Positions 28,002 to 50,459 of a stretch of DNA of 53,592 bases are shown here, piece after piece. The stretch's first letter is position 1, and each line of letters opens with the position of its first letter. A program made the translations under genes and the position numbers. Location of the stretch: the NCBI GenBank assembly GCA_024226335.1, contig JAAELY010000172.1:1-53592 (forward strand), written 5' to 3'. Under the pieces are notes generated by a model, which was not told the origin of the DNA, searched no databases, and saw only the letters and a list, made by a program, of their open reading frames with translations. This stretch comes from a bacterium (GTDB lineage: Bacteria > Myxococcota_A > UBA9160 > SZUA-336).

Positions 28002-28016
28002 GGCTCCGAGGGAGCC
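28002..28016. terminator. possible bidirectional hairpin between convergent genes
   Basis: GGCTCC-gag-GGAGCC forms a 6-bp stem with a 3-nt loop between the NTF2-like gene and the convergent lipoprotein, touching the latter's stop codon. It lacks a U-tract, so intrinsic termination is uncertain. Confidence 0.3.
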
Positions 28017-30871: not shown

Positions 30872-30878
30872 GGACCCG

Positions 30879-30884
30879 AGCATA
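30879..30884 (-). promoter_or_regulatory. -10 box of a possible leaderless promoter
   Basis: Minus-strand TATGCT lies 7 nt upstream of the ATG of the large lipoprotein; no Shine-Dalgarno sequence and no good -35. Confidence 0.3.
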
Positions 30885-30945
30885 CCGAACAGATCGACCG
30901 AGCCACGGCCCAGCGGGTACAGGAACGGCCCGGAATTCAAACAGG

Positions 30946-34577: not shown

Positions 34578-35213
34578 CTAGCTGGGACAGATGAGTTCCC
34601 GACGCGAGAGTGTCTCCACTTCGATCTCGTAGTCGTGCAGCCCGTTTCGAAGGTGGACCCGACGAGGAACCTCGCGCGGTGCGACGCCTCCTTTGTAGCT
34701 CACAACCACGCTGCCCATGCGTGCCCCCAAGCGGTCCGGGATCGTGCGCTCGACGAGCCGGCCGTCCTGCCAACGCTCGACGAAAGCGAAGCTCCCCAGA
34801 AACACAGTGTGACTGCCGTCGGCGAGCGGCGGGTCGGCCACGGGGTAGAGATAGGTTCGATGCACATCGAGCAGGACGCGGTCGGGTGCAAAGGGCCAGG
34901 GCTGGGTCGTGAAAGACTGCACCTGCGTCTCGTACCCGCGCTGGGTGATGGAGAAGAGGCGCTGGCCGAGCGGAGACAGGCCCACGATCACTAGCGCACC
35001 GCAATGGACCTGCAGCACGGCTTCGAGCGCCCCACTGGTACCGTCGGCGGCCCGGAAGCGCAGGCGCTGGCGCAGGGCGAAGTTCCCGGGAACCTGGCCG
35101 CTCGCGAGCAGCTTCACAGTGCTCGCATCGGACAGCATCGGCGGTGGCCGCTGTGGCGGACTGACACAGGCTGCCAGAAGCAGCCCTAGTGCGACGGCGG
35201 CGCAACGGCTCAC
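34578..35213 (-). CDS. DUF3261 lipoprotein of aryl-polyene clusters
   Basis: A 211-residue lipoprotein with signal MSRCAAVALGLLLAAC (lipobox LLAAC). The mature domain (LRQRLRFRAADGTSGALEAVLQVHCGALVIVGLSPLGQRLFSITQRGYE ...) matches the DUF3261 proteins regularly found in aryl-polyene clusters next to the LolA-like and MMPL genes. It is thought to help place the polyene lipid in the outer membrane, though its exact task is not established. The ATG overlaps the stop of the LolA-like gene by 4 bp. Family assignment rests on the pattern and the neighbours. Confidence 0.82.
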   Translation of the reverse strand: MSRCAAVALGLLLAACVSPPQRPPPMLSDASTVKLLASGQVPGNFALRQRLRFRAADGTSGALEAVLQVHCGALVIVGLSPLGQRLFSITQRGYETQVQSFTTQPWPFAPDRVLLDVHRTYLYPVADPPLADGSHTVFLGSFAFVERWQDGRLVERTIPDRLGARMGSVVVSYKGGVAPREVPRRVHLRNGLHDYEIEVETLSRRELICPS

Positions 35214-35887
35214 GGGGCGGGCAACTCGAACAGCTCGTCGAGCTCGCGTTGTGTGAACACGCGCTGGCTGTCGACGTCCGTGAACACCATCAGTGTCTCG
35301 TCGCCGCCGCGCTCGAGGATCCGGAGTCGCGAGACGGAGCGACCTTGGCCGAAAATCTGCAGCACGCGCAGGCTCCGCTTCAAGGCTTCGGCCCGCGGCT
35401 CAAGCACGAGCTCCCAGCGGCGGCCCTCCGGCTTCCCGACGCTCCGAAGCTCCAGAACAAAGTTCATTTGCAGACCTGGAAGATCGCCTCGGAGGAGCAT
35501 CCGAAAGCTGTCCACGAATACGCCCAGCATCGGATGCACGGCGAGGTCGAGCGCGCCGCGATCCTCGTCGGACGCGTAGCGCAATTGCTCTCCGTCCAGC
35601 AGCAGGGTCGAGCGCAGCGGGGCCTCGGTGTGACGCGCGAGCCGACCCGGTGGCGCGAAGTAGATCGTGCCGCGTGTCTCGAGCGGCTCGACCAACAGCG
35701 CGAGGTGTTTTTCTTCGTGGAAACGCGCCGCCAGCCCGGGTATGCGTGCGAAGTCGGCGAGGAGCGTCTCGAGATCGAGCGGGGTCTCGCGACCCGGTAG
35801 CGGAGACGCGGCGCGCACGGGCGCCTCGGGGATCAACACGGCAAACGCCAGCAGCACGAGCAGAGCGCTGGACAATGAACGTGCCAT
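35210..35887 (-). CDS. LolA-like periplasmic lipid/lipoprotein carrier
   Basis: A 225-residue protein with a Sec signal peptide (MARSLSSALLVLLAFAVLIPEAPVRA) and a LolA-type beta-barrel. Family marks are LLADFARIPGLAARFHEEKHLALLVEPLETRGTIYFAPPGRLAR and LDGEQLRYAS near the middle. In aryl-polyene clusters the dedicated LolA homologue probably carries the finished lipid between membranes, together with the MMPL exporter and the DUF3261 lipoprotein. ATG 35887 has AGGAG just upstream on the minus strand. It is divergent from the acyltransferase, across a 138-bp spacer. Confidence 0.87.
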   Translation of the reverse strand: MARSLSSALLVLLAFAVLIPEAPVRAASPLPGRETPLDLETLLADFARIPGLAARFHEEKHLALLVEPLETRGTIYFAPPGRLARHTEAPLRSTLLLDGEQLRYASDEDRGALDLAVHPMLGVFVDSFRMLLRGDLPGLQMNFVLELRSVGKPEGRRWELVLEPRAEALKRSLRVLQIFGQGRSVSRLRILERGGDETLMVFTDVDSQRVFTQRELDELFELPAP

Positions 35888-36025
35888 GGGGCTCCTAGAA
35901 TATGTAGGTGAGCGTCGGATCATGTTGTTTACAGCCAACAGGGCCACTGGCATTCTGGCGCTCATCCAATGCGATGGCCAGACCGGATCGTTCCCTGCGC
36001 GTCCGGTATCATTCAGGAGCGACGA

Positions 36026-36880
36026 ATGAGCGAACGCTGCCGAAATCACGAGAGGGCAAGAGACAAGGAAACGACGCCCCTTCCGGCACCATCGCGGAGC
36101 GGCATCGGGCGGCGCCTGGAAAGGCTCTGGCGGGTCTGCGGAACGGCTTTCATGTTCGCAGCCTTCGGTGTCGGCGCCGTCATCTTGGCGCTTGTTGTAG
36201 TCCCGCTTTCGGGGCGACTGACGCGAGGCGAGGTACGCCGCGACCTGCTGGCGCAGCGCTGGATCCAGCGTTCCTTCGCACTGTTCGTGCGACTCGGTGT
36301 TCTGATTCGGGTCTGGAAGACGAGTCATCATGGCATGCAACATCTCGCCGAGGGCCCTAGCCTGGTTGTGGCTAATCACCCCACCCTCATGGACGTAGTA
36401 TTTCTCCTCGCGTTCATGCCGCAGGCGGACTGTGTGGTGAAGCGCGCAGCTTGGAGCAACCCGGCCTTACGCGGCATCGTGCGGGCCGCCGGCTACATCC
36501 CGAACGATAGCAGTGAGACGCTGGTCGAGGCCTGCGCGGACCGCCTGCGCGCTGGGCGCTCCGTGGTCCTGTTCCCTGAGGGGTCCCGCTCGCCAGATTG
36601 CGGCCTCAGGAGCTTTCGGCGCGGCATGGCGCATATCGCTCTCCGCAGCGGCTGCCGGATCGTGCCGGTCGTGATCGACTGCGATCCACCGGCACTCAAA
36701 AAGGGACAACCGTGGTACGCTCTGCCGAACGAGACTTTCCACTATACCTTTAGTGTCGGATCCCCAACATACGCGAAAGACCTAGTCGACGCTGACCTCG
36801 CACCGTCGGTGGCGGCAAGACGCATCAGCTCCTGGATGCGCAACTACTTCGAAGCAAGGCTGAACCATGGAGTCACTTGA
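36026..36880 (+). CDS. 1-acyl-glycerol-phosphate-type acyltransferase (PlsC family)
   Basis: A 284-residue acyltransferase, anchored by a membrane helix at about 40-62. The catalytic H(x)4D is NHPTLMD with His118 and Asp123, and the second block FPEGSRS lies near 190. These enzymes transfer an acyl group from ACP or CoA onto a glycerol-like or sugar acceptor; here they probably link the polyene or a fatty acid to the lipid carrier, as in other aryl-polyene clusters. The start has AGGAG (36015-36019). It is the first gene of the rightward operon and overlaps the first ACP gene. Confidence 0.9.
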   Translation: MSERCRNHERARDKETTPLPAPSRSGIGRRLERLWRVCGTAFMFAAFGVGAVILALVVVPLSGRLTRGEVRRDLLAQRWIQRSFALFVRLGVLIRVWKTSHHGMQHLAEGPSLVVANHPTLMDVVFLLAFMPQADCVVKRAAWSNPALRGIVRAAGYIPNDSSETLVEACADRLRAGRSVVLFPEGSRSPDCGLRSFRRGMAHIALRSGCRIVPVVIDCDPPALKKGQPWYALPNETFHYTFSVGSPTYAKDLVDADLAPSVAARRISSWMRNYFEARLNHGVT

Positions 36881-37136
36881 AACGCTGGAGGCAGAGCTGA
36901 AGGAGCTGATCATCGGCGTGCTCGTACTGGAAGACATCACGCCTGAGGAGATCAGCAGCACGGACGCGCTCTTCGGCGAGGGTCTGGGCTTGGACTCGAT
37001 CGATGCGCTGGAAATCGCGATGGGGCTAGAGAAGCGCTACGAAGTCCAGGTTGGCGACGATCCGGAGGAGAACGCGAAGCACTTTGCGAATGTTCGCGGC
37101 CTGGCCACCTTCGTGTCCGAAAATCGCAAGAAGTAG
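36867..37136 (+). CDS. acyl carrier protein (first of two)
   Basis: An 89-residue acidic ACP. The 4'-phosphopantetheine attachment site is Ser44 in LGLDSIDALE. It has the four-helix pattern of discrete type II carriers. It overlaps the end of the acyltransferase by 14 bp and is followed after 8 bp by a second ACP, the usual tandem of aryl-polyene clusters, where one carrier is thought to load the aryl starter and carry the chain. A phosphopantetheinyl transferase is not encoded in the window, so it would be borrowed from elsewhere. Confidence 0.95.
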   Translation: MESLETLEAELKELIIGVLVLEDITPEEISSTDALFGEGLGLDSIDALEIAMGLEKRYEVQVGDDPEENAKHFANVRGLATFVSENRKK

Positions 37137-37144
37137 CCGCGCGC

Positions 37145-37405
37145 ATGCCCGAGGCTATGACCAAAGAACAGATCTTCCAGCAGGTCAGCGAAATCCTGGT
37201 CCAGTCCTTCGAGCTCGACCCCGACGAGATCCTGCTCTCCGCGCACCTGATCGACGATCTGGACCTGGACAGCATTGACGCCATCGACCTTGCCGTCGGG
37301 CTTCAGGACGAGACCGGACTCGACGTGGCCGAGGAAGAGCTTCGGGAGATCCGGCGCGTGGAGGACATCGTCGAGCTGGTTCACCGCAGGCTGCAGGACG
37401 TGTAG
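37145..37405 (+). CDS. acyl carrier protein (second of two)
   Basis: An 86-residue ACP with the attachment Ser43 in LDLDSIDAID. ATG 37157 (MTKEQIF) is an alternative start. It is only partly similar to its neighbour, and ends LVHRRLQDV. In the model of related clusters the two carriers have separate tasks (chain elongation and loading or transfer), but which is which cannot be told from sequence. Confidence 0.95.
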   Translation: MPEAMTKEQIFQQVSEILVQSFELDPDEILLSAHLIDDLDLDSIDAIDLAVGLQDETGLDVAEEELREIRRVEDIVELVHRRLQDV

Positions 37406-37417
37406 CCAACCGTCGTG

Positions 37418-38395
37418 ATGGCCGCCCTTCAGATCCTAGTCGGCGTCGCGTATCCCGCGTTGATCTACCTCGGGCTCCGCGTGCTCGAGCCGCGTCAGGT
37501 CGCGCTCTCGGTGCTCGGGTTGCTCGCGCTCCGCTTGGCGATCGCCGCACCCCATCGGCTCATCCCTTACACGAAGGTGTTCTGGCTGCCCGTGCTCGCC
37601 GTGGGCCTGATGGTCATGGCGACAGCCGCCACAAACCATCCGCTGAGCCTGCTGCTGGGTCCGAGTCTCATCAACCTGGCGCTCTTTGCCGTGTTCGCCA
37701 GCTCGCTCGTGGGAGCCGAGTCTACGATCGAGCGCCTAGCGCGGATCCAGGTCCCGGACCTGTCCAGAGAAGAACTCGCTTACTGCCGCCGCGTGAACGT
37801 GATCTGGAGCGCGTTCTTCGTGATCAACGGCACGATCGCCTTCGGGCTTGCCCTGGCTGCGACCCTCGAGGCTTGGGCGCTCTACACTGGCGGTATCGCC
37901 TACGTTCTTATGGGCGTGCTGTTCGCAGCCGAGTTCACATATCGGCACTGGCGCTTCCGGCGTTACCTGGGCGCGCCGACCGACTGGGTCTTCCGCATGT
38001 TGTTCGGCGAGGACGAGCAGAGTGACGCAGTGAAACCACGCCTAGACCCGGAGTTCGTGTCAGAGAGGACCGTCGAACAGGGTCGGGAGTTCGAGCTGCG
38101 CGTGCCCGAGGATCTCGCCTGCTGGCCTGGACACTTTCCGGTGTATTCCCTGGTTCCGGGCGTCCTCCAGCTCCGGTGGGTCGTGCAGGCGGTCGAGCGC
38201 TGCACAGGGACACCCGCCTTTGTCCGGAGCATCGAGGCGCTCAAGTTCAAACGGCCGATGCTCCCCGGTCAGGCCTTCACGCTGGCGGTGCAGCCGGACG
38301 AGACGCGCCGCCTATTCCGTTTCAGCCTCAACGCCGGGACCGAAGTCTTCTCTTCGGGACGCCTCCGAGTCGAGTTCGACGAGGAGGGGGCGTGA
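37418..38395 (+). CDS. COG4648-type membrane protein fused to a hot-dog dehydratase
   Basis: A 325-residue two-part protein. Residues 1 to about 200 hold five to six membrane helices (COG4648 type, e.g. LGPSLINLALFAVFASSLVGAES and a loop HWRFRRYLGAPTDWVFRMLFG). The C-terminal 110 residues form a FabA/FabZ-like hot-dog domain with CWPGHFPVYSLVPGVLQL, where His of GHFP is the expected catalytic base. In other aryl-polyene clusters these two functions are usually encoded as neighbouring genes or as this fusion. It would remove water from beta-hydroxyacyl-ACP. GTG 37415 is an alternative start. Confidence 0.85.
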   Translation: MAALQILVGVAYPALIYLGLRVLEPRQVALSVLGLLALRLAIAAPHRLIPYTKVFWLPVLAVGLMVMATAATNHPLSLLLGPSLINLALFAVFASSLVGAESTIERLARIQVPDLSREELAYCRRVNVIWSAFFVINGTIAFGLALAATLEAWALYTGGIAYVLMGVLFAAEFTYRHWRFRRYLGAPTDWVFRMLFGEDEQSDAVKPRLDPEFVSERTVEQGREFELRVPEDLACWPGHFPVYSLVPGVLQLRWVVQAVERCTGTPAFVRSIEALKFKRPMLPGQAFTLAVQPDETRRLFRFSLNAGTEVFSSGRLRVEFDEEGA

Positions 38396-39123
38396 GGCCC
38401 TGCCTGCTGATCCCGAACTACGACCACGGATCGACGATGAAGGATCTGCTCGCCTCCCTCGAGAACCTGGGTCTGGAATGCATCGTGGTGGATGACGGCA
38501 GCGGTGCCGCAACACAGCAGATCCTACGAGCGCTAGACGAACGCTATAGTTGGGTTCGGGTCGTGATGCTGCCTGAAAACCGCGGCAAGGGTGAAGCGCT
38601 GCGCACAGGCTACCGCCTGGCCCACTCGCTCGGGTTCACGCACGCGGTCCAGCTCGATGCCGACGGCCAGCACGACGCGATCGACGTTCCCCTCTTTCTC
38701 GAAATCGCCGAGCAGCGGCCGGACGCGCTACTACTTGGCATGCCTAGCTTCGAAAACGCCTCGCGCGTTCGGCTTTACGGGCGCCTGTTGTCCTGCTTCT
38801 GGGTATGGATCGAGACGTTATCGTTCGAGATCCGCGATCCACTCTGCGGACTGCGCTCCATGCCGTTGGGCCCAACGCTTGGTGTTCTGGAGCGTACGCC
38901 TTGCGGCGATCGGATGGACTTCGACCCCGAGATCGCTGTGCGCCTGTTCTGGGCTTCGGTGCCGGTCGTCAACGTGCCGTGTCGCGTACGTTACTTTGCG
39001 GACGGTCTCTCGCACTTCGACTTCCTGTGGGACAATGTCCGCATGACGCGACTCCATGTGCGGCTGTTCTTTGGCATGGTCACGAGGCTTCCTTGGCTGC
39101 TGCGTCGTCGGAGCCGCAATTGA
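38392..39123 (+). CDS. family 2 glycosyltransferase
   Basis: A 243-residue GT2 enzyme with a GT-A fold: CLLIPNYDHGSTMKDLL at the N-terminus, CIVVDDGSG, the metal-binding AVQLDADGQHD and the acceptor segment DPLCGLRS. It transfers a sugar from an NDP- or polyprenyl-sugar; in aryl-polyene clusters such enzymes are thought to attach sugar to the lipid part. The GTG at 38392 overlaps the preceding stop (GTGA) and has GAGGAGGGGG upstream. A C-terminal hydrophobic and basic tail may bind the membrane. Confidence 0.9.
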   Translation: MRPCLLIPNYDHGSTMKDLLASLENLGLECIVVDDGSGAATQQILRALDERYSWVRVVMLPENRGKGEALRTGYRLAHSLGFTHAVQLDADGQHDAIDVPLFLEIAEQRPDALLLGMPSFENASRVRLYGRLLSCFWVWIETLSFEIRDPLCGLRSMPLGPTLGVLERTPCGDRMDFDPEIAVRLFWASVPVVNVPCRVRYFADGLSHFDFLWDNVRMTRLHVRLFFGMVTRLPWLLRRRSRN

Positions 39124-40085
39124 GTCGCGACCGGGACTGGTATGAGCGACGAGAACGCGGTTCGAGGCTCGGTATGCAGATCACCGGCTGGCTCTACCGA
39201 CACGTCGGCAGCGGGGTGGCGAGCGTTCTGCTCTACCCGATCGTCGGCTACTTTTTCCTCACCGGCCGCGCTGCTCGCCACGCCTCCCTCGTCTACCTTC
39301 GACGCGTCTACGCCACGCCGGAAGCAGCCTGCAGACTCGGCGCGCCACCCGGCCTATTGCAGAGCTTCCGACACTTTCTCGAATTCGGTGTCGCCATCCT
39401 CGACCGTGTGGGCTTCTGGCTTGGGCGGCGTGACGACTTCGAGTTGGAAGTCGACGGCATGCATCACCTGGACCGGGTCGCGGAGGAAAAGTGCGGATGC
39501 TTGATCCTGGGATCGCACCTGGGCAGCTTCGACGCCATGCGTCTACTCGCCGCCACGCGCTCGCCGATCTCCGTCTGCGTGCTCATGCACACGGAGAACG
39601 CCGCGCGCATCAACGACCTGTTGAGCAGCGCAAGCGAGCCCGATGAAAACGTCAAGGTGCGCGTGATCCAGGTCCAAGCAGGTTCCTTCTCCCACGCGCT
39701 CGATGTCAAGGCCTGCATCGAGCGCGGCGAGGTGGTCGCAGTGCTGGGCGACCGGTTCCATCCCAACGAGAGTGACCGGGTGACGAGCGTTGAGTTCCTG
39801 GGAGCACCCGCGGCGCTCCCGCAGGGGCCGCTTCTGCTAGCTAGCGCGCTGGGCTGCCCGGTCCTGCTGATGGTGGGCCTGCGCGTAGGTACCCGACGCT
39901 ACCGCGTTCACGTCGAGCCCTTTGCCGAGCGCGTGCGGATCCCCCGCAAAGAGCGTACGAAGGCGCTCGCCCACTACTGCCAGCTCTACGCGGACCGAAT
40001 CTCGTATTTCTGCGTACGAAACCCGCTCCAGTGGTTCAACTTCTACGACTTCTGGGGGAAGGAAGAGGCGAGCCGTGACCCGTGA
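39120..40085 (+). CDS. LpxL/HtrB-type lysophospholipid acyltransferase
   Basis: A 321-residue acyltransferase of the lipid A lauroyl-transferase type. The N-terminus (RDWYERRERGSRLGMQITGWLYRHVG) is the typical W..RERGS start of these enzymes, which supports the TTG at 39120 overlapping the preceding stop (TTGA). A membrane helix follows, then the H(x)4D motif GSHLGSFDAMR. The product probably receives a second acyl chain, giving the polyene lipid a diacyl-like anchor. Common in aryl-polyene clusters. Confidence 0.87.
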   Translation: MSRDRDWYERRERGSRLGMQITGWLYRHVGSGVASVLLYPIVGYFFLTGRAARHASLVYLRRVYATPEAACRLGAPPGLLQSFRHFLEFGVAILDRVGFWLGRRDDFELEVDGMHHLDRVAEEKCGCLILGSHLGSFDAMRLLAATRSPISVCVLMHTENAARINDLLSSASEPDENVKVRVIQVQAGSFSHALDVKACIERGEVVAVLGDRFHPNESDRVTSVEFLGAPAALPQGPLLLASALGCPVLLMVGLRVGTRRYRVHVEPFAERVRIPRKERTKALAHYCQLYADRISYFCVRNPLQWFNFYDFWGKEEASRDP

Positions 40086-40539
40086 GTTGCCACCGGTCGC
40101 AGAGGTGATCCCTCATTCCGGAAACATGCTCCTGCTTTCCGACATCCTGAGTCACGATCCAGAGGGCGAAACGGTGTGCCTCGTCATCGTCGATCAAGTT
40201 CCCTCGTTTCGTGACGCCGCGGGTCATCTGCCCTCATGGATCGGGCTCGAACTCATGGCGCAATGCGTGGCTGTATACGGAGGACTCGTGGATCGGGAAC
40301 GAGGCGATCCACCTCGCCTCGGTTTCCTGCTGGGCTCCAGGAGTCTGGTCTTTCATCGCGTGCTGTACAATCCCGGACAACGCCTCGAAGTAAGCGCCAC
40401 TCGAACCTGGGGTGCGGCTTCCGGCATGGTGTCGTTCGACTGCGCGGTCAGAGATGCCGCGACAGCCGAGATCCTGGCGGAAGGGCGACTAAACTGCTTC
40501 ATCCCAGAGAAGGGCGTAGCACTGGAGGCATTGCCATGA
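40075..40539 (+). CDS. beta-hydroxyacyl-ACP dehydratase (hot-dog fold)
   Basis: A 154-residue hot-dog-fold protein. The beginning VAEVIPHSGNMLLLSDIL with P-H-S-G-x-M and the following W-I-G-L-E-L-M-A-Q-C segment are typical of the stand-alone dehydratase in aryl-polyene clusters. It would form the trans double bonds of the polyene together with the fused dehydratase upstream. GTG 40075 overlaps the acyltransferase end by 11 bp. Its stop overlaps the ketoreductase ATG. Confidence 0.9.
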   Translation: MTRELPPVAEVIPHSGNMLLLSDILSHDPEGETVCLVIVDQVPSFRDAAGHLPSWIGLELMAQCVAVYGGLVDRERGDPPRLGFLLGSRSLVFHRVLYNPGQRLEVSATRTWGAASGMVSFDCAVRDAATAEILAEGRLNCFIPEKGVALEALP

Positions 40540-41258
40540 AACGAAGAGTCCTGGTCACGGGAGGCAGTCGCGGCATCGGACGCGCGATCGCGCTGGAGCT
40601 GGCAGCCGACGGTTTCGGGGTCGCACTCAACTACCGCAAGCAGCGCGATGCGGCCGAGGCTGTGGTCAAGGAGATCGAGGCGCTGGGGGGAGAGGCCGGG
40701 CTCCTGCCCTTTGATGTCGCAGATCGCGATCAGACTCGCCGCGCGCTCGAGAACGAGATCGAGCGTGCCGGTTCGTTCTACGGCGTGGTATGCAACGCCG
40801 GCGTGCGTGCCGACGGTCCCTTCCCAGGGCTCAGCGACGAGGCCTGGGACCACGTCCTGCGCACGAACCTCGACGGCTTTTACAATGTGCTTCACCCGCT
40901 GGTGATGCCGATGGTTCGGGCACGCAAAGGTGGCCGCATCGTCACCATGTCGTCGCTGGCGGGTGTAGTCGGAAACCGCGGGCAGGTCAACTACAGCGCG
41001 TCGAAGGCCGGATTGATCGCGGCCACGCGTTCGCTTTCGTTGGAGCTGGCCAAGCGGAAGATCACAGCGAACAGCGTCGCACCCGGCTTCATCGGAACGG
41101 ACATGATCGAGGGCCTTCCGGAGGAAATGGCGAAGCTGATCCCGATGCAGCGAGTCGGATCTCCTGAGGAAGTCGCCGCGCTAGTCGCCTTCCTGTTCTC
41201 AGATCGGGCCTCATACATCACCGGGCAGACCATCTCGATCAACGGCGGGATGGCCTGA
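40536..41258 (+). CDS. 3-oxoacyl-ACP reductase (FabG-like)
   Basis: A 240-residue short-chain dehydrogenase. The NADPH-binding motif TGGSRGIG is at 8-15, the NAG region is CNAGV, and the catalytic Tyr-x3-Lys is YSASKAG (about 151-157) with the upstream Ser in VTMSSLAG. It reduces beta-ketoacyl-ACP during polyene elongation. ATG 40536 overlaps the stop of the dehydratase (ATGA) and its stop overlaps the ATG of the ketosynthase, so the three are translated as a coupled set. Confidence 0.95.
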   Translation: MKRRVLVTGGSRGIGRAIALELAADGFGVALNYRKQRDAAEAVVKEIEALGGEAGLLPFDVADRDQTRRALENEIERAGSFYGVVCNAGVRADGPFPGLSDEAWDHVLRTNLDGFYNVLHPLVMPMVRARKGGRIVTMSSLAGVVGNRGQVNYSASKAGLIAATRSLSLELAKRKITANSVAPGFIGTDMIEGLPEEMAKLIPMQRVGSPEEVAALVAFLFSDRASYITGQTISINGGMA

Positions 41259-42493
41259 TGCGGCGCGTCGTCGTCACCGGCATGGGCGGCCTGTGCCCCC
41301 TCGGAAACGACTGGAAGACCGTCTCGGAGGGGCTTCGCAGTGGCTCCTCGGCCGTGGAGTTTCTCGCCGAACTCGAACGCTTCGAGGGCATGAATACGCG
41401 CCTGGCAGCGCGCGTGCACGACTTCGAGGCGCCCTCGCACTACCCCCGCAAGCGCACGCGCAGCATGGGACGCGTATCGCTACTCGCCACGCGCGCCACC
41501 GAGCTGGCCTTGCTGGATGCCGGGCTCTTGGACGATCCGGTGATCAGGAGCGGGCGCGCCGGTATCTCTTACGGTTCCACCAGCGGCAGCCCGCCGGCTC
41601 TCACCGTGTACGCGGTGAACATCGAGACCAAGAGCACGTTGCACGGTATCCGCGCCACCGACTACCTGCAGGTCATGAGCCACACGGTTCCCGCGAACCT
41701 GGCTCAGTTCTTCGAGTTGAAAGGCCGCGTAGTCACGACGTGCAGCGCCTGCACCTCCGGTAGTCAGGGAATCGGCTACGGCTACGAAGCGGTTCAGTCG
41801 GGCAAGCAGGACGTAATGATCACGGGAGGCGCCGAGGAGTACCACGCGATCGACTCCGCAGTGTTCGACATCATGTACGCGACATCGACCCGAAACTCGA
41901 CTCCCCACGAGACGCCGCGACCCTTCGACGTCGACCGCGACGGGCTCGTCGTTGGTGAGGGTGCGGCCACATTCGTGCTCGAAGAACTGGAACACGCGCG
42001 CGCGCGCGGCGCCCAGATTCATGCCGAGCTCGTTGGCTACGGGACCAACTGCGACGGTAAACACATGACCAATCCGGACTCCGATGGCATGCAGCAGGTG
42101 ATGGAGCTCTGCCTCGAGGACGCCGGGCTCGACGCTTCTACCGTCGGCTACGTGAATGCTCACGGCACGGCGACAGAGGCCGGGGACATCGCCGAGAGCC
42201 AGGCGACCCGGCGCGTGTTCGGCGAGCGATTACCGATCAGCTCGCTCAAGAGTTACATCGGCCACACATTGGGCGCCTGCGGCGCGATCGAGGCCTGGCT
42301 TACCATCGAAATGATGCGCGAGGGCTGGTTCGCTCCGACGATAAACCTGGACAGTGTGGATCCCCGCTGCGGTGAGCTGGACTACATTCGCGAGGGGATT
42401 CGCGAGCTCGAAACCGAGTACGTGATGAGCAACAACTTCGCGTTCGGCGGCATCAACACGTCGCTCGCCTTCCGGCGTTGGTCAGGGCAGTAA
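41258..42493 (+). CDS. beta-ketoacyl-ACP synthase (FabF-like)
   Basis: A 411-residue ketosynthase with the complete Cys-His-His triad: Cys165 in TTCSACTSGS, His in NAHGTATEAGD and His in YIGHTLGACGA. The ACTSGSQG pattern is slightly different from the usual ACSSG, as often in aryl-polyene synthases. It condenses malonyl-ACP with the growing aryl chain. It closes the rightward operon and lies 10 bp from the convergent half-ketosynthase gene. Confidence 0.95.
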   Translation: MRRVVVTGMGGLCPLGNDWKTVSEGLRSGSSAVEFLAELERFEGMNTRLAARVHDFEAPSHYPRKRTRSMGRVSLLATRATELALLDAGLLDDPVIRSGRAGISYGSTSGSPPALTVYAVNIETKSTLHGIRATDYLQVMSHTVPANLAQFFELKGRVVTTCSACTSGSQGIGYGYEAVQSGKQDVMITGGAEEYHAIDSAVFDIMYATSTRNSTPHETPRPFDVDRDGLVVGEGAATFVLEELEHARARGAQIHAELVGYGTNCDGKHMTNPDSDGMQQVMELCLEDAGLDASTVGYVNAHGTATEAGDIAESQATRRVFGERLPISSLKSYIGHTLGACGAIEAWLTIEMMREGWFAPTINLDSVDPRCGELDYIREGIRELETEYVMSNNFAFGGINTSLAFRRWSGQ

Positions 42494-42503
42494 CAGGCTC
42501 GAA

Positions 42504-43235
42504 CTAGCGGCGGCACACGAAGCGGTTCGATGCACAATCGAGACTCAGGACAGGCTCGCTCGAGAACAGCCAGCGGACGAACTGCAGGGCCTGCGGAAAG
42601 TCGTTGGAGTCCCCATCCGTTCCATTCGGTGTGGGCTCGAGAGTGAACTCGAGGCTCTCTCCTTCCTCGACGTCGAGCAGCAGCGCCACCGCGTGCGCCC
42701 CGTGATCGTCATCCGAGAGCTCGAGCAGCGGCTCGGGAATCGACTCGTCGCCCACGATCAGCAGCACCGGACGTCCCGGCTGCCTACGCAGCATCGAGAG
42801 CGCCTCGAGAAATCCATAGGCGAAGGTGTGCGCACCGGCCGAGACGCAGGTCGATGCCCGCTGGTTCCCGGCCCAGATCGAGAACAGGCCGGCCGGCGTG
42901 TTCAGGACCGAGTGACTGAACCGGGCCGGAGACAGCTTGGCATCCTCGGCCAGGCACTCGAGCAACGACACCATGGTGGTGAATCCGCCGTGACGCGAGG
43001 CGAAGACCGAGGTCACCTCGGGCAGTAGCGCAGCGCCGCAGCACTCGTGCGCGACGTGCAGCATCATGCGGCTCAGCTGGTCGCAGCGACGACGCATGAG
43101 CGATGGAATGAAACGTAGCGCGGGCGCTCCATCCTTCCGCAGCGGACGCGGATCGCGCGCCCAATCGCCCCAGTCCTTCTCGCTCTCGATCCCGGCCGAC
43201 CACGCAGCCCAGCTCTTCAGGGCGACAGAACTCAC
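42504..43235 (-). CDS. half-size ketosynthase, chain-length-factor-like
   Basis: A 243-residue protein of the Pfam ketoacyl-synt_2 type often named 'beta-ketoacyl synthase chain length factor'. It has the N-terminal half of a thiolase fold; the segment STCVSAGAHTFAYGF corresponds to the active-site region of a ketosynthase with a Cys, but the later His motifs are absent, so it cannot condense by itself. It probably pairs with one of the full ketosynthases as in other aryl-polyene clusters. GTG 43235 overlaps the stop of the upstream ketosynthase (GTGA). Confidence 0.85.
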   Translation of the reverse strand: MSSVALKSWAAWSAGIESEKDWGDWARDPRPLRKDGAPALRFIPSLMRRRCDQLSRMMLHVAHECCGAALLPEVTSVFASRHGGFTTMVSLLECLAEDAKLSPARFSHSVLNTPAGLFSIWAGNQRASTCVSAGAHTFAYGFLEALSMLRRQPGRPVLLIVGDESIPEPLLELSDDDHGAHAVALLLDVEEGESLEFTLEPTPNGTDGDSNDFPQALQFVRWLFSSEPVLSLDCASNRFVCRR

Positions 43236-44449
43236 CCCGACCTCCGGCCAAGCACGAGTGCGGAATTGCTTCCGCCAAAGCCGAACGAATTGCTCATGAG
43301 CATGGGCTCGGCACCGACATCCACCCACGTTTCGTCGCCTGCGAGCCGGAGCTGCGGAAGCTCGCCGTCGAGCTGGCCGTCAAAGCGGTGCGGGGGCACG
43401 CGGAGGCGGCCTCCCTGCTGCCGGTCCAGCATCAGCCAGCAAAAGCCCGCCTCCAGCGCGCCAGACGCACCCAGAGTGTGACCTACTAGCGGCTTGGTCG
43501 AGCTGCAGCAGACGTTCGATCCGTTGAAGACACGCTCGACAGCTGCACTCTCCATCGCGTCGTTATGTGGCGTGCCCGTACCGTGCAGGTTCAGATAGGC
43601 GATCTCGTCCGGGCGAATACTGGCGTCCTGCAGCGCCGCGCGCATGCATGCCTCCGCTCCACGCCCGTTCGGCTCTGGCGCGGACATGTGGTGCGCGTCG
43701 CTCGACTCGCCAGCGCCCAGAAGCTGGATGCCTTCGGGATCGCGCGTCAGCAGAAACAGTGCCCCGCCCTCTCCCAGTGTGAGCCCGTCCCGGTTCCTGC
43801 TCATCGGGTTGGTGATGACCGCGGACACCGCCTGCAAGGCGGCGAACCCGTTCGCCGTAAGGCGGCAGCGTGAGTCGACTGCGCCGGCGATCACGGCATC
43901 GCAGACCCCGAGCTCGAGCAGGCCGCGCGCGGAGATCAACGCCTTGGCGCCCGTCGAACACGCAGTCGAAAGCGCGTAACACGGACCCTGCGCACCCGAG
44001 ATCCGGCCCAGGAACTCGGGCATCCCGCCAAACTCGAGCTGCACCAGGTCGAACGACGGTGAGAGCGCTCCAGTCCGGCGGCGTTGCTCGAACGCCTGTT
44101 CCGCCGCCTCGACGCCTGCGGTGCTCGAGCCTGCGACGATGGCTACGCGGGCCGGCCCGAAGTGCGCGATAGCGCGCTCGACGGCCGGGCGGATCCCCTC
44201 GAAAGCGACGAGCGCCAGGCGGTTGTTCCGACAGTCGAAGCGGGAAAGCGACGCGGGCAGATCCGGCAGCGTCTCAGGGGCCTCGCCCAACAGGTGCACG
44301 CCGCCGCCGACCAGATTCCCGCGCTCTCGGAAGCCCGACTGGTCGCCCGCGATCAGCCTCCGCCAAGTCTCGTCGAGCGTGCTGCCGAGCGCACTCACCA
44401 TTCCCAGGGCACTCAGGGCGCAGGGCTCGCTATGCAGCTCGGGGGCCAT
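43232..44449 (-). CDS. beta-ketoacyl-ACP synthase (second full-length)
   Basis: A 405-residue ketosynthase with Cys164 in ALSTACSTGAKAL, His in NLHGTGTPHND and His in LVGHTLGASGALEA, so catalytically complete. It differs clearly from the other ketosynthase in the cluster, consistent with separate tasks (starter condensation or elongation). It begins directly after the stop of the AMP ligase (TGAATG) and overlaps the half-ketosynthase gene. Confidence 0.94.
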   Translation of the reverse strand: MAPELHSEPCALSALGMVSALGSTLDETWRRLIAGDQSGFRERGNLVGGGVHLLGEAPETLPDLPASLSRFDCRNNRLALVAFEGIRPAVERAIAHFGPARVAIVAGSSTAGVEAAEQAFEQRRRTGALSPSFDLVQLEFGGMPEFLGRISGAQGPCYALSTACSTGAKALISARGLLELGVCDAVIAGAVDSRCRLTANGFAALQAVSAVITNPMSRNRDGLTLGEGGALFLLTRDPEGIQLLGAGESSDAHHMSAPEPNGRGAEACMRAALQDASIRPDEIAYLNLHGTGTPHNDAMESAAVERVFNGSNVCCSSTKPLVGHTLGASGALEAGFCWLMLDRQQGGRLRVPPHRFDGQLDGELPQLRLAGDETWVDVGAEPMLMSNSFGFGGSNSALVLGRRSG

Positions 44450-45997
44450 TCAACGCTGCCCCCCGGCGGGCGCGCGAGCCGCCCGCTCCGCCGCAATCAG
44501 CTCGCCGCGCAGGATCTTGCCGGTCGGCGAACGAGGCACGTCCTCGCGCACTTCGATAACACGCGGAACCTTGAGGGCCGCGAGGTGCTCGCGAGCGAAG
44601 CGCTTCAGCGCCGCGGAATCCACCTGTTCGCCCCGCTTCGGGATCGCGATCGCCTTGAGGCGCTCCGCCGTATCCGAGAACGGGACCGGAATCACGACCG
44701 CCTCCGACACCGTGGGGTGACGGGCGAGACACGCCTCGACTTCGAGCGGGTTCACGCTCTGGGCGCCGACGTCAATCATCAGCTTGAGACGTCCGGTGAG
44801 CCGCAGCCTCCCCTGGTCATCGAGCGTCCCGAGGTCTCCGCTGCGTACGAACCCGTCCACGTAGGGCTCGTCGTCGGAATCGACATAGCCCGAGAGCATG
44901 CTCGGCGCCGAAACGAGCACCTCGCCTTCGGCACCGGCCGGAAGCGGTTGGTGCCCTGCCGGATCATCACTGCGCACGAGCTTCAGCTGGACCCTGGCAA
45001 GCGGTCGGCCGCAGCAGTCCGGATCGAAATCAGGGTCGGCCGGGTCGTTGTAGGTGACGGAACCGAACTCGGTCGCGCCGTAGACCTGGCCGACGCGAAC
45101 GCCGAAGCAATGCTCGAACTGGTCGAATACGCGGCGCGGGAGCGGGCTCCCCGCGGAAATCACACGGCGCAGCGCCGGAGGTTGCCCCACCCCGGTGCTG
45201 GCGGAGACCGCATCCAGCATCAGGGGCACCGCGGGCCATACGCTGACGCGCTGGGCGACAAGCGCAGACCGGACCCGCCCCGGGACAAAACTGGAGTGCA
45301 ACTCGGTCGCACACCCGGCGATCGTCGCGCCCATGAGTGCGAAGTCGATCCCGTACGAATGGTGCAGCGGAATCGTGACCAGCATCAGATCGGATGCGCG
45401 AAGCTCGAGCGCACGGCAGAGGTTGCGCCCGACGGCATCGAGCACCGAAGCGGGCCGGCGTACGATCTTCGGCAAACCCGTGGTCCCTGAACTCTGCAGG
45501 AGGATCACACCGGGCCCGCAGCGCATCGACTCCCCAGCTGCCGGTGACTCGCCTTCGAGCAGCGACTCGACCGGGATGATCTGCTCGATCTCTCCATCGA
45601 GCGCGCGGCGCGGCGCCGCATCCCCGATCAGGAGCGACACACGCGCGCGTCGTGCCAAACCCCGCAGCTCGGTCTCAGTCGACACAGGCGAGACCGGAAG
45701 TACGTCGGCGCCCGCCCAAAGACCGCCGATAAGCCCGATCTGCGCCTCGATGCGGTTCGGCACCGCCAGCATCAACACTATCCTGTCCGTAGACAATCGC
45801 AGCAGCTGCCCCCGCAGCCGCGCTGCAGCGTCGCGCAGCTGCTGCCACGTGAGCTGGCGGCCGCTCCCGAGCACGTCGTCCTCCCGGATCGCCAACTCGT
45901 GTGGACGCTCACTCGCGTGAGATTCGAGTGCGCGAATCAGCTCCGACGGCCCTCCTTCCTGTTCCGCAGCCGGGAAGGGGCCGACCCGTCCGCTCAC
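44450..45997 (-). CDS. AMP-dependent aryl-ACP/CoA ligase
   Basis: A 515-residue ANL-superfamily enzyme: the phosphate loop is LLQSSGTTGLPKIV, followed by VTIPLHHSYGID, and the C-terminal Lys of PTGKILRGEL is in place; the A8 hinge is RLTGRLKLMIDVGAQSV. In related clusters the enzyme activates the aromatic starter (coumarate or hydroxybenzoate) and loads it on an ACP. Given the chorismatase and the lack of an ammonia lyase, hydroxybenzoate is the predicted substrate here. It overlaps the thioesterase by 4 bp. Confidence 0.92.
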   Translation of the reverse strand: MSGRVGPFPAAEQEGGPSELIRALESHASERPHELAIREDDVLGSGRQLTWQQLRDAAARLRGQLLRLSTDRIVLMLAVPNRIEAQIGLIGGLWAGADVLPVSPVSTETELRGLARRARVSLLIGDAAPRRALDGEIEQIIPVESLLEGESPAAGESMRCGPGVILLQSSGTTGLPKIVRRPASVLDAVGRNLCRALELRASDLMLVTIPLHHSYGIDFALMGATIAGCATELHSSFVPGRVRSALVAQRVSVWPAVPLMLDAVSASTGVGQPPALRRVISAGSPLPRRVFDQFEHCFGVRVGQVYGATEFGSVTYNDPADPDFDPDCCGRPLARVQLKLVRSDDPAGHQPLPAGAEGEVLVSAPSMLSGYVDSDDEPYVDGFVRSGDLGTLDDQGRLRLTGRLKLMIDVGAQSVNPLEVEACLARHPTVSEAVVIPVPFSDTAERLKAIAIPKRGEQVDSAALKRFAREHLAALKVPRVIEVREDVPRSPTGKILRGELIAAERAARAPAGGQR

Positions 45998-46503
45998 CGC
46001 GTCGCTCCTTGGAGCTCGTCGGTGCTGGGCCCGCGGGGCAGAAGACGTGCGGCGATCGAGTCGGGCGTGCGGTGCAGCATCTCACCGGTCGGCGTCGTCG
46101 CCACGAGCGTGGTGTGCCCGCGCGCGCTGCGCACTCCCAGGCTCAGGTTCGAAAGTTCGTAGGCGATCAGGATGCGGTGCGTCACGTCTCCGAACCAGGC
46201 GGCAATCCGGACCCGGTCCCCGTAGCGCAGCGGCGCGGTGTGGCGGCACGCGCTCTCGATCACCAGCAATCCGTGGCCGAGCGAGATCAGATCCTTCACA
46301 TCGAGCTTGCGCGAGCGCAGTAGCTGCGTGCGCGCGATCTCCATGTACTTGTAGTAGTGGCCGTGCCAGACGATCCGAAGCGCATCCACGTCGTGAAACG
46401 GAACCTCTAGCTCGGTGCTGCACTCGTGCAGCCTAGCACCGCGCCTCCCGCGCCCCTGGAGTTGAAGTCGGCCTTCGCTGGCTTCAGTGTCAGAGGAGGT
46501 CAT
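45994..46503 (-). CDS. 4HBT-type acyl-CoA/ACP thioesterase
   Basis: A 169-residue hot-dog thioesterase. The active-site stretch VPFHDVDALRIVWHGHYYKYMEIAR (about 34-58) has Asp40 at the position of the catalytic Asp of 4-hydroxybenzoyl-CoA thioesterase. It may release or proofread aryl-ACP or polyene-ACP. It is the first gene of the leftward operon (thioesterase-ligase-ketosynthase-half ketosynthase) and is divergent from the radical SAM gene across a 187-bp spacer. A low-complexity N-terminus (about 1-25) precedes the fold. Confidence 0.9.
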   Translation of the reverse strand: MTSSDTEASEGRLQLQGRGRRGARLHECSTELEVPFHDVDALRIVWHGHYYKYMEIARTQLLRSRKLDVKDLISLGHGLLVIESACRHTAPLRYGDRVRIAAWFGDVTHRILIAYELSNLSLGVRSARGHTTLVATTPTGEMLHRTPDSIAARLLPRGPSTDELQGATR

Positions 46504-46690: not shown

Positions 46691-48067
46691 GTGCGAGTCG
46701 CGTTCGTATCCGGAAACCGCGAGAAGCTGCCCGATGCCGTGATCCCGCTCGGCATCCTTAGCGTGCTGGCCAGCACGCCGGACCGCCACGAGAAGCGACT
46801 GATCGATCTTTGCTTCGAGCGTTACCCAACGAAGGCGCTGCAGTCCGAACTCGAGTCCTTCCGACCCGACGTGATTGGGCTCGGCATGCGCAACATCCAG
46901 AATGCGGATTATACAGGCAACGACGACCATCTCGCCTACTACACGGAGCTGATCACCGCAGCGCGGCAAGTCAGCTCAGCCCCGATCGTGCTCGGCGGGT
47001 CAGGGTTCAGCGTGGCGCCGAAAGAGCTGATGGAGCGCCTTCAGCCCGACTACGGGATCGCAGGCGAGGCCGAGGCGTCCTTTCCGCAGTTGCTCGATCG
47101 GCTTGAGGGACGCACGCCGTTGGACCAGCAGATTGGCGGGCTGTTCGCGCGCCAGAACGGTCGCATCACAACGACACCGGCGGATGAGTTTCTGAACCTC
47201 GCGACGCTAGCGATGGTCGACCGCTCGCTGCTCGATCCGCGCTACTACGAACGCTACGGCATCGACTCCGTCCAGACCAAACGGGGCTGCCCGCTGCACT
47301 GCGACTACTGCACCTATCCGACGATCGAGGGACGGGTCGGGCGCCTGCGCCCGCCGACTGCAGTCGTCGACGAGATGCACCTCGCACTCGAGCAGCAGCC
47401 GGAGATCAGGCACTTTTTCCTAGTGGACTCGGTCTTCAACCTGCCGCGCTCCCATGCCAAGGACGTGTGCCGCGAACTGATCTCGCGAGACTGGCGCATC
47501 CCGTGGACCTGCTACGCCAACCCGTTGGGCTTCGATCGCGAGTTCGCGCGGCTCGCGCGCAACGCGGGCTGCACTGGAATGGAGATCGGCTCCGACTCTG
47601 GCGTCGATCGCACCCTGGAACGCCTGCGGAAAGGTTTCACTACGCAGCAGATCCGCGAGATGCACAAGGTCTGCAAGGACGAGGGCATTCCCGACTGTCA
47701 CACCTTCATCCTCGGCACGCGCGACGAAACGCTCGAAGACGTAGAGCGTTCGCTCGAATTCATCGTCTCGCTCGACCCCTACGCCGCGATCCTGACCATT
47801 TGGGTGGAAGACTACGAGGCGCTGGACCCCGAACTGCGGCGCGATCGGCTGCGCCTGCGCGCGCGCATCGAGGAGCGGCTGTCCGAGCACAAGGACGAGT
47901 TCCCCTACTGGATCATCCCGCCGCTCGGCGTCAACTTCGACCGTGGTCTGTTCCGCAGGCTGCGGCGCCAGGGATTGCACGGACCACTGTGGCAATATCT
48001 GCGCTCGACTGACGAGGTCGAGGCACTGGGCGCGGCATTCAGGGCGCGCGCTCGTTCGGTCCCGTGA
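46691..48067 (+). CDS. B12-binding-fold radical SAM protein
   Basis: A 458-residue protein with an N-terminal cobalamin-binding-like Rossmann domain (about 1-140, including PDVIGLGMRNIQN and PIVLGGSGFSVAPKELM). The DxHxxG cobalt-ligating motif is not seen, as in many members. A radical SAM barrel follows, with the cluster-binding Cys200-x3-Cys204-x2-Cys207 in KRGCPLHCDYC. A C-terminal tail of about 90 residues is unassigned. Members do methyl transfers, ring closures and rearrangements on unactivated carbons. Its place among polyene genes suggests tailoring of the polyene or its lipid, which is inference. GTG start. Confidence 0.88.
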   Translation: MRVAFVSGNREKLPDAVIPLGILSVLASTPDRHEKRLIDLCFERYPTKALQSELESFRPDVIGLGMRNIQNADYTGNDDHLAYYTELITAARQVSSAPIVLGGSGFSVAPKELMERLQPDYGIAGEAEASFPQLLDRLEGRTPLDQQIGGLFARQNGRITTTPADEFLNLATLAMVDRSLLDPRYYERYGIDSVQTKRGCPLHCDYCTYPTIEGRVGRLRPPTAVVDEMHLALEQQPEIRHFFLVDSVFNLPRSHAKDVCRELISRDWRIPWTCYANPLGFDREFARLARNAGCTGMEIGSDSGVDRTLERLRKGFTTQQIREMHKVCKDEGIPDCHTFILGTRDETLEDVERSLEFIVSLDPYAAILTIWVEDYEALDPELRRDRLRLRARIEERLSEHKDEFPYWIIPPLGVNFDRGLFRRLRRQGLHGPLWQYLRSTDEVEALGAAFRARARSVP

Positions 48068-50459
48068 GCAGCAGCACTGCCGGGGCCAGGACGAGGCTCA
48101 GCGGCACCCCGATCGCCGTGCTCAACCCGAGCGCGCGCAACGCGGGAAACGACGACGCCGCCAATAGGCCAAAGGCGAGGCACGTGGACAGGCACGCCGC
48201 GCACAGACTCAACAGCGCGGCCGCCCGGCCCGGGCCGCTCGCGTCGCTCGCGACCAGGAAGATCGCGTAGTCCACCCCAATGCTCAGCACGAGAAGTAGA
48301 CCCAGCAGGTGGAGCAGGCTAATCGGAATCCCGGCGATCCCCAACAACGCGAGGGTCAGCGCTGCCGCCAACACCGCGGGTAGCGCGGTCGCGACCGCGA
48401 TCCCGATACTGCGGTAGCGCGCGAAGAGCAGAGCGACGACCGCTGCGAGACCAACGGCGATCAGCACGCTCGTACGCTCGCGGTAGCGACCGTAAATCTG
48501 TGCGAGAAAGCGCCGCTGATCGAAATAGTGCACGCCGTCCAGATCTGCCAGCCGGGCACCCAGTGCGGCGGGATCGGAGACGCCCTGCAGGAAGGTCAGG
48601 AGCGCCACCCGCTCGCCCAGGTCCACGCGGAACGCGGCGACGCTGCTCGCCAAGCTCGAAGCCACGAGATCTGCGAAGCGCAGTGGCGGCGTAGAGTGGT
48701 CGGCGAGCGCGCGGGTGAAGCCCTCGAAGGCATCCGGCCGGAACCCCTCAGCCGACAGGGCCGAGAGCATCTGCCGAGGAAGCTCGGGCATGTCGGCCAG
48801 CACCCCGCGGTTGCGCTCCTGCAAGGACACCGACGGCAGGAACACGTGTAGTGAACGGAAGCCCGTGATCTCGCCTGCCTCACGGGCAGACACGAGTCGC
48901 TCGTAGGCCGCGTCGTTCAGGCGCAACGCGTCCTGCTCGCTCTCGGCAATCGACACGACGAAGCGGCCCGGGTCCATCTGTGCGACCCGGCCGCGAACGC
49001 CGGCGTCTTCGGCGAGCCAGCCCTCGGGCGGCGACAGCCCGAGCGCGAACACATCGTCCTGCATGGACACATGCGGCAGGCCGACCGCGGTGACGGCCAC
49101 TGCACCTAACAACAGAAGCACCAGCGCGAGCCTCCGCTCGCGCATTCCAGCCAGCAGGCGCGCCAGAAGCTGAGAGACCCCAGCTTGCAGCGGCGTCGCG
49201 ACCGGAGCGCGGGGCAGGAGCGGCGGAAGCAGTACGCGCGTCGTGACGAGCGCCCCGATCACACCGGTTCCGGCGAAGATGCCGATCTCGCGGATTCCAG
49301 GAAAGTCCGACCACGCCAGGCCGACGAAGCCGGCGACCGTCGTCAGCGCGCCCATCACCAGCGCACCCCAGATCTGCGCCAGAGACGCACGCGGCCCGTC
49401 GGGTGCCGGAACCAGCGTGTGGTGGCTCACATAGTGGATCGGGTAGTCGATACAGACACCGATCAGCGTCGATCCGAACACCAGCGTCATCAGGCCCAGC
49501 TCGCCGAAAATCAGGATGCCGACGCTGGTGGCGGTGAGCACGCCGCCCGCGATCGGCAGCAGCGAGATCACCAGCAGGCGCAAGGATCCGAACACGACCA
49601 GGAAGAGCAGCACGATACCGACCAGGGAAACCGCCGAGATCCCCTGCATGTCGGCACGCGCGCGCTGCTCCGAAGCCACCGCGAAGCGGTGTACACCACT
49701 GCGCTCGAGCCGCACAGCCCCGGGCTGGCCGGTGGCCAGCTCGGCGAAGCTCCGCTCCAGGAACGCTTCGAGCGGCGCCTGGTGCGCCACGTCAAACGCC
49801 GAGTGCCGAGTAGTCAAGAACAGGATGGCAGCGCGCTCCGCCGGGGATGCAAACTGGCCGGAGACCAGCTCCAGCGGCCCCTGCTGCGCCCCTTCGAACT
49901 CGCGTAACAGCGCGGGAAAGGCCAGCAGCGGATCTTGCCCCGCGATCTCCTTGACGAGCTGCGCCTGCGGAAGCGCGAGCTGCTCGCGTAGCCGCCGCGC
50001 GGCGTTCCGCAGTTCCGCCGGCGAGAGTCTCTGGGCGAGCTCGACCTCGGGCTGGCTCGACAGCAGAAGCAGCCGGCGCGGGAAGTACAGCTCAAAGACG
50101 GCGCGCGCGAACTCCGGGTCCGGACCAGCACGTACGCTCTCCACCTCCGGATGCCCTTGAAGCACCGCCTGCCAGCGTCGCGCTGTCTTCAGCGCCGTCC
50201 TCAGATCCGGCGCGGTCACACTGAGCACCATGGTGCGCGTCAGTGGGCTGTCAACCAGGCGCGCAGAGATGTGGGCCAGCTCCAGATCGGACGACTCGGA
50301 CAGCAAGCTCGCGAGCCCAGTCGATAACTGGAGATTGCGGGCCGTGAACAACGCCATGCCGGCCAGAAGCAACAGACCCGCGGCGGGGACGACGAGCGCG
50401 CGATGACTCACGGGGGCTGGGCGACCTCCATCTCTCAGCGATCCCGCGCTTCCGCGCAT
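48039..50459 (-). CDS. MMPL/RND-family exporter
   Basis: An 806-residue transporter with twelve membrane helices in two MMPL-type halves: a first helix (LVVPAAGLLLLAGMALFTA), a periplasmic domain (about 40-245), helices, a second periplasmic domain from about 440 and a final helix bundle. Charged intramembrane segments such as GVCIDYPIHYVSHH and SIGVDYAIFLVA are the family's proton-relay helices. It is the standard exporter of aryl-polyene clusters. The start is uncertain: ATG 50459 overlaps the TRL-like gene by 25 bp, whereas GTG 50411 with an upstream GGAGG would not. Its stop overlaps the convergent radical SAM gene by 29 bp. Confidence 0.93.
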   Translation of the reverse strand: MRGSAGSLRDGGRPAPVSHRALVVPAAGLLLLAGMALFTARNLQLSTGLASLLSESSDLELAHISARLVDSPLTRTMVLSVTAPDLRTALKTARRWQAVLQGHPEVESVRAGPDPEFARAVFELYFPRRLLLLSSQPEVELAQRLSPAELRNAARRLREQLALPQAQLVKEIAGQDPLLAFPALLREFEGAQQGPLELVSGQFASPAERAAILFLTTRHSAFDVAHQAPLEAFLERSFAELATGQPGAVRLERSGVHRFAVASEQRARADMQGISAVSLVGIVLLFLVVFGSLRLLVISLLPIAGGVLTATSVGILIFGELGLMTLVFGSTLIGVCIDYPIHYVSHHTLVPAPDGPRASLAQIWGALVMGALTTVAGFVGLAWSDFPGIREIGIFAGTGVIGALVTTRVLLPPLLPRAPVATPLQAGVSQLLARLLAGMRERRLALVLLLLGAVAVTAVGLPHVSMQDDVFALGLSPPEGWLAEDAGVRGRVAQMDPGRFVVSIAESEQDALRLNDAAYERLVSAREAGEITGFRSLHVFLPSVSLQERNRGVLADMPELPRQMLSALSAEGFRPDAFEGFTRALADHSTPPLRFADLVASSLASSVAAFRVDLGERVALLTFLQGVSDPAALGARLADLDGVHYFDQRRFLAQIYGRYRERTSVLIAVGLAAVVALLFARYRSIGIAVATALPAVLAAALTLALLGIAGIPISLLHLLGLLLVLSIGVDYAIFLVASDASGPGRAAALLSLCAACLSTCLAFGLLAASSFPALRALGLSTAIGVPLSLVLAPAVLLLTGPNERAP

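Follow-up and report, generated by a model that had tools for sequence, protein, structure and literature searches.

The gene at positions 46,691-48,067 of the window (the whole analysed stretch of DNA, 53,592 nucleotides) encodes a B12-binding radical SAM (rSAM) enzyme. At slightly better than even odds (about 0.52), this enzyme is a cobalamin-dependent radical SAM C-methylase that serves as an accessory tailoring enzyme of the aryl head in a subset of aryl-polyene (APE) clusters. The linkage of the gene to APE clusters is real. Methylation as the reaction and the head as the target, together with where and when the methyl group would be added, are what we infer from the family relationships and gene co-occurrence described below.

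The radical SAM gene and its flanks

The open reading frame is intact and gives a complete product of 458 amino acids. Its GTG start is in register with the starts of the orthologues in an alignment. The Pfam B12-binding domain (PF02310) occupies residues 14-134 with a score of 45.5 bits (cut-off 32.1) and the Radical_SAM domain (PF04055) occupies residues 197-358 with 77.3 bits (cut-off 29.5). The cobalamin-type domain proposed in an earlier sequence-only reading is thus borne out, both models being above their cut-offs. That reading had also described a complete radical SAM motif at Cys200/204/207, which is confirmed by the residues CPLHCDYC starting at position 200, a CX3CX2C motif providing the [4Fe-4S] ligands C200, C204 and C207. 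These three cysteines are unchanged across 43 homologues, as is the R67-N68 pair at the lower-axial position.

The gene lies between a thioesterase and an exporter, in agreement with the earlier description. The divergent thioesterase gene starts 187 bp upstream on the opposite strand, and the MMPL gene is convergent and overlaps the rSAM gene by 29 bp. No cobalamin riboswitch or other RNA family was found near the gene by Rfam at E ≤0.5.

The host cluster

The E. coli APE cluster (locus L192) was used as the yardstick for a gene-by-gene comparison. Homologues were found in the window for ApeC, D, E, F, G, H, I, J, K, L, M, N, O, P, Q and R. The APE set of ketosynthase (KS), KS-CLF, ketoreductase, dehydratases, acyl carrier proteins (ACPs), ligase, acyl- and glycosyltransferases, LolA and MMPL is present, and by gene content the cluster is of the aryl-polyene type, with a putative aryl-polyene product. 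The features are as follows.

32037-33053, forward strand: chorismatase of the FkbO/Hyg5/XanB2 type
34578-35213, reverse strand: DUF3261 protein, ApeN-like
35210-36379 (ORF limits), reverse strand: LolA-like carrier, ApeL-like, with the domain in the C-terminal half
35969-36880 (ORF limits), forward strand: PlsC-type acyltransferase, ApeD-like
36867-37136, forward strand: acyl carrier protein, ApeE-like
37145-37405, forward strand: acyl carrier protein, ApeF-like
37415-38395, forward strand: ApeG-ApeI fusion, membrane domain plus dehydratase
38176-39123 (ORF limits), forward strand: family 2 glycosyltransferase, first half of an ApeJ-like pair
38805-40085 (ORF limits), forward strand: LpxL-type acyltransferase, second half of the ApeJ-like pair
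39922-40539 (ORF limits), forward strand: ApeP-like dehydratase, domain at residues 57-196
40533-41258, forward strand: FabG ketoreductase, ApeQ-like
41258-42493, forward strand: ketosynthase, ApeR-like
42504-43328, reverse strand: chain-length-factor-like KS N-terminal domain protein, ApeC-like (PF13723)
43232-44449, reverse strand: ketosynthase, ApeO-like
44450-45997, reverse strand: AMP-forming aryl/acyl ligase, weakly ApeH-like
45994-46503, reverse strand: ApeK-like thioesterase, divergent from the rSAM gene
46691-48067, forward strand: B12-binding and radical SAM enzyme, cobalamin-type, 458 amino acids, GTG start
48039-50459, reverse strand: MMPL/RND-type exporter, ApeM-like

The ApeG-like and ApeI-like parts are joined in one reading frame here (37415-38395), but they are not fused in E. 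coli or in locus L086. The AMP ligase presumably activates an aryl carboxylate starter, and the chorismatase is the presumed source of a hydroxybenzoate head. In characterised relatives, enzymes of the FkbO/Hyg5/XanB2 type make 3- or 4-hydroxybenzoate as the aryl starter (PMC3949708). In the window, some 11 kb separate the chorismatase from the AMP ligase, whereas the two genes adjoin in relatives such as L086, L088 and L091. A second, weaker chorismatase-like match of 61 bits is present in the same genome (G000:C215:1074-1871). The window also carries, on the reverse strand at 28016-30940, a reading frame of 974 amino acids whose coding signal is strong but which matches no NCBIfam model.

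The sequence-only reading had remarked that the usual tailoring genes, a methyltransferase or a halogenase, are not seen. This holds: neither was found by Pfam among the window genes scanned, and no homologue of ApeA or of the head methyltransferase ApeB was found among the window's called genes. In the E. coli APE, xanthomonadin and arcuflavin clusters, the head is tailored by a SAM methyltransferase and/or a halogenase. The arcuflavin cluster of Azoarcus (PMC3949708) resembles the window in having a chorismatase, an AMP ligase, LolA and an exporter. The arcuflavin paper makes no mention of a B12-rSAM gene, and none was found in the E. coli APE cluster.

Linkage to aryl-polyene genes

Eleven orthologues, near-full or partial, with 57-67% identity are present in genomes of the same class. 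Among named records, 41 orthologue loci, about 48-66% identical, were found, mainly in Myxococcota or "Deltaproteobacteria". The non-myxococcal orthologues belong to Gammaproteobacteria (Woeseiaceae, Chromatiales and Steroidobacteraceae) and to a few MAGs labelled otherwise. Using profiles partly seeded from the orthologue loci themselves, a bias that favours the orthologues, APE genes were detected in the fetched stretch for 30 of the 41 orthologues, some of which are on short contigs, versus none of 16 distant homologues (mostly from Nitrospirae and 31-40% identical; p = 2e-7) and 0 of 20 paralogues, that is, other B12-rSAM proteins of the class (p = 2e-8). The ApeP-like Pfam model, which is independent of these loci and free of the seeding bias, was present, when whole genomes were searched, in 15 of 21 carriers of the gene and in none of seven carriers of distant homologues. 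Simple gene callers were used for the related loci, so a missing neighbour in some of them is weak evidence.

Close homologues are accompanied by KS, ACP, FabG, MMPL, LolA and chorismatase genes, which supports the membership in a polyene cluster that had been proposed from the sequence. A hopanoid, bacteriochlorophyll or tRNA-modification setting was rejected: no such neighbours were recognised, and the HpnJ and BchE models score far below their cut-offs. Four orthologues (L103, L110, L113 and L116) are not adjacent to APE genes. The few orthologues found away from APE genes are what would be expected if the gene were unrelated to the cluster and stood beside it by chance. This is, however, extremely improbable in view of the difference between 30 of 41 and none of 16 or 20, and because the gene is conserved in several families within the class and in clusters of Gammaproteobacteria that differ in gene order.

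The gene is an accessory of APE clusters, as shown by 26 genomes of the class that are ApeP-positive but do without it. The earlier statement that it is not a standard aryl-polyene gene is right for E. coli, but it has to be modified for Myxococcota and Gammaproteobacteria, where the gene recurs, and also because the gene stands beside the NCBIfam family "lipid biosynthesis B12-binding/radical SAM protein".

Structural relatives

The AF2 model of the rSAM protein has a pLDDT of 91.3, and its top Foldseek matches are TsrM, AprD4, MgmA, OxsB, CysS and TokK. TsrM (a tryptophan C2-methylase; PDB 6wte and 6wtf) is the closest solved structure by both sequence and fold, with about 25% identity to the window protein. 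The two proteins have in common the CX3CX2C motif, the FNL motif and an arginine beneath the cobalt (R67, equivalent to R69 of TsrM). In TsrM, the loop that follows strand 3 carries Arg69 and places it beneath the cobalt (PMC13331322, PMC8992657). R67 aligns with Arg69, and in the predicted model it too is found in the loop following strand 3.

Glu273 of TsrM occupies the unique iron, so that SAM is blocked at the cluster and radical formation is prevented. The equivalent residue in the window protein is V248 (DSVFNL versus DSEFNL in TsrM). This replacement would leave ordinary radical chemistry open, and the window enzyme looks like a TsrM relative of that kind. It was not assigned to the TsrM family proper, TIGR04428, as it scores 127.5 bits against a cut-off of 500 and the Glu at position 273 is missing.

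In both sequence and fold, AprD4 ranks second among the solved relatives; it has a B12-like domain and binds no cobalamin. Together with OxsB, BchE and HpnJ, it is one of the relatives that do not function as methylases. Its rank agrees with a radical SAM enzyme that has a B12-like domain and no cobalamin, and that catalyses a dehydration or redox step. The sequence alignment with AprD4 is nevertheless limited to the radical SAM domain, whereas that with TsrM covers both domains, and the lower-axial R67-N68 pair is invariant among the 43 homologues, so that an AprD4-like activity is very unlikely. From the sequence features we infer that the window protein binds cobalamin. Cobalamin is probably available in the cell, because the genome encodes a B12-dependent methionine synthase.

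Family placement

The best NCBIfam model for the protein is TIGR04072 (rSAM_ladder_B12), with a score of 270.9 bits that is below the cut-off of 360 and an alignment that stops at profile position 350 of 443. None of the 91 class genomes reaches this cut-off. In a tree of 86 rows, obtained from a quick search and having some long branches, the window clade consists of 44 rows (SH-aLRT 100), and the TIGR04072 rows above the cut-off branch outside it. Membership in TIGR04072 proper was rejected on these two grounds, and the window clade is a separate subfamily. Its earliest branches (L227, L229 and L242) have no APE genes in view.

The window protein resembles TIGR04072 in its domain order and in the RN and D..FN motif pair, a pair that the class's other B12-rSAM paralogues lack. 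Of the ten top-scoring TIGR04072 loci that were examined, seven lie within or next to APE-like sets of type II genes. Myxococcota TIGR04072 proteins (L215-L220 and L222), most of them above the cut-off, are found near ApeO, KS, ApeI, ApeJ, ApeK, LolA and MMPL genes. The window clade shares with the TIGR04072 setting a type II fatty acid/polyene neighbourhood.

A B12-rSAM protein of the anammox bacterium Kuenenia, Kuste2803, was put forward by Rattray et al. as a candidate for ladderane cyclisation (PMC2649909). Kuste2803, from the ladderane cluster, is used here as a comparison protein only and is not an established member of TIGR04072. An analogous radical cascade in the window enzyme would act on the polyene to close a ring or create a carbon-carbon bond. 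Such a reaction fits the top match to TIGR04072, the RN and D..FN pair common to the two groups, and the existence of ring-forming B12-rSAM enzymes (PMC13142503). It is improbable, however, as the score is only 270.9 of the 360 bits, the window clade is separate and well supported, and the co-occurrence described below follows the head genes rather than the chain genes.

The second-best NCBIfam match is BzaD (TIGR04385), at 199.7 bits and far below the cut-off of 450. BzaD is a methyltransferase of the benzimidazole lower-ligand pathway (PMC8123684), and adding a methyl group to a carbon of an aromatic ring is the same kind of chemistry as that proposed for the window enzyme. Aryl C-methylation is the most likely function because methylation is the predominant reaction among cobalamin-binding radical SAM enzymes (PMC13142503) and because TsrM and BzaD are neighbours.

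Co-occurrence with head supply and the target of the enzyme

The survey of the class covered 91 genomes, 19 with the rSAM gene and 72 without it. A chorismatase is present in nine genomes, eight of which have the rSAM gene, and a NosL-like homologue of 3-methyl-2-indolic acid synthase is present in ten, nine of which have it. One or other of these head-supply genes is found in 16 of the 19 carriers versus 2 of the 72 non-carriers (p = 5e-13); these counts ignore kinship and are not phylogenetically independent, the carriers spanning several families of the class. ApeP and the rSAM gene are associated at p = 0.04 in the same 91 genomes, which is too weak for ApeP co-occurrence alone to be taken as proof of linkage inside the class. 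The rSAM gene is lacking in 26 of the 38 ApeP-positive genomes, and only one of these 26 has a head-supply gene.

The rSAM gene and the chorismatase are neighbours on the same strand in five loci, separated by gaps of 5-16 bp. Other same-strand partners at ≤100 bp are ApeN-like genes (3), PlsC (2), LolA (2) and a thioesterase (1). In locus L114, a halogenase-like FAD enzyme is the same-strand neighbour of the rSAM gene, with a gap of ≤16 bp.

Because one subfamily spans chorismatase-type and NosL-like-type heads, it could act on a moiety that both kinds of pigment share. The enzyme would then methylate or otherwise modify the polyene chain (or the lipid anchor) instead of the head. Besides the two chemically different head suppliers, several of the same-strand partners being anchoring or export genes would be in line with this, as would the presence of TIGR04072 relatives above the cut-off in clusters of KS, ApeI, ApeJ, ApeK, LolA and MMPL genes. 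A chain or anchor target is nonetheless rather unlikely, since the 26 ApeP-positive genomes do without the gene despite having the chain and export machinery, and all but one of them also lack a head-supply gene. The head, the polyene and the anchor had all been named as potential targets in the sequence-only reading; among these the head is favoured by two unrelated aryl-starter genes. On the balance of co-occurrence and some operon partners, the aryl head is most likely the target of the enzyme.

In a Woeseiaceae locus (L095:4138-5211, forward strand), an ApeB/FlxJ-like methyltransferase is situated 10 bp downstream of the rSAM gene on the same strand. The two types of head-tailoring enzyme may act on one pigment there. 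ApeB was found in none of the 20 APE clusters of the class that lack the rSAM gene. The rSAM enzyme was therefore not regarded as a simple replacement for ApeB, as L095 has both and the class clusters without the rSAM gene are also without ApeB.

Clusters with NosL-like and FAD enzymes

In clusters without a chorismatase, a NosL-like protein is found near the rSAM gene. It matches the PDB NosL entry with E of about 4e-73 and scores 260.7 bits against TIGR04158, below the cut-off of 400. This NosL-like radical SAM protein is beside the AMP ligase in L101 (7537-8721, reverse strand) and also in L094, L096, L100 and L105. The class genomes with a NosL-like gene are G013, G032, G037, G048, G050, G052, G055, G071, G082 and G089. 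Its presence in APE-type clusters that have no chorismatase suggests an indolyl rather than a phenyl polyene head. We know of no pigment class of indolyl polyenes.

A FAD enzyme related to tryptophan halogenases (L111:2101-3705, reverse strand, and nine other loci) recurs next to rSAM and FabG genes in clusters without a chorismatase. An enzyme of the same kind is located upstream of the chorismatase-rSAM pair in L098 and L106.

Proposed pathway

In the proposed pathway, the chorismatase would convert chorismate to hydroxybenzoate, which the AMP ligase would load onto an ACP. The type II KS, FabG and dehydratase machinery would then extend the aryl starter to the polyene. Either ahead of this step or following it, the rSAM enzyme would methylate the aryl head. 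The first SAM would methylate cob(I)alamin, and the second would be cleaved at the [4Fe-4S] cluster to give a 5'-deoxyadenosyl radical, with the methyl group passing from the cobalt to a carbon of the head. The lipid-linked pigment would be exported via LolA and MMPL.

Implications

Aryl polyenes are among the commonest bacterial pigments, and the known tailors of their heads are ordinary methyltransferases and halogenases. B12-rSAM proteins of type II lipid/polyene clusters are already known by family name. The literature searched yielded no subfamily associated with the supply of aryl-polyene heads and no paper joining "aryl polyene" and "cobalamin-dependent radical SAM", most subscription journals being outside the search.

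A B12-dependent radical enzyme would reach carbon positions that are closed to ordinary methyltransferases and halogenases, and would link the pigment to the supply of vitamin B12. The same clade holds the ladderane-named family, whose chemistry is a question of long standing, and the pigment offers colour and mass as a readout for this branch. Tentatively, a ladderane-type B12-rSAM relative may have become a dedicated tailor of aryl-polyene heads, across both hydroxybenzoate and NosL-like indolic starters. If this is true, the NosL-like starter would lead to indolyl polyenes, and the ladderane enzyme and the pigment-tailoring enzymes would be of common ancestry.
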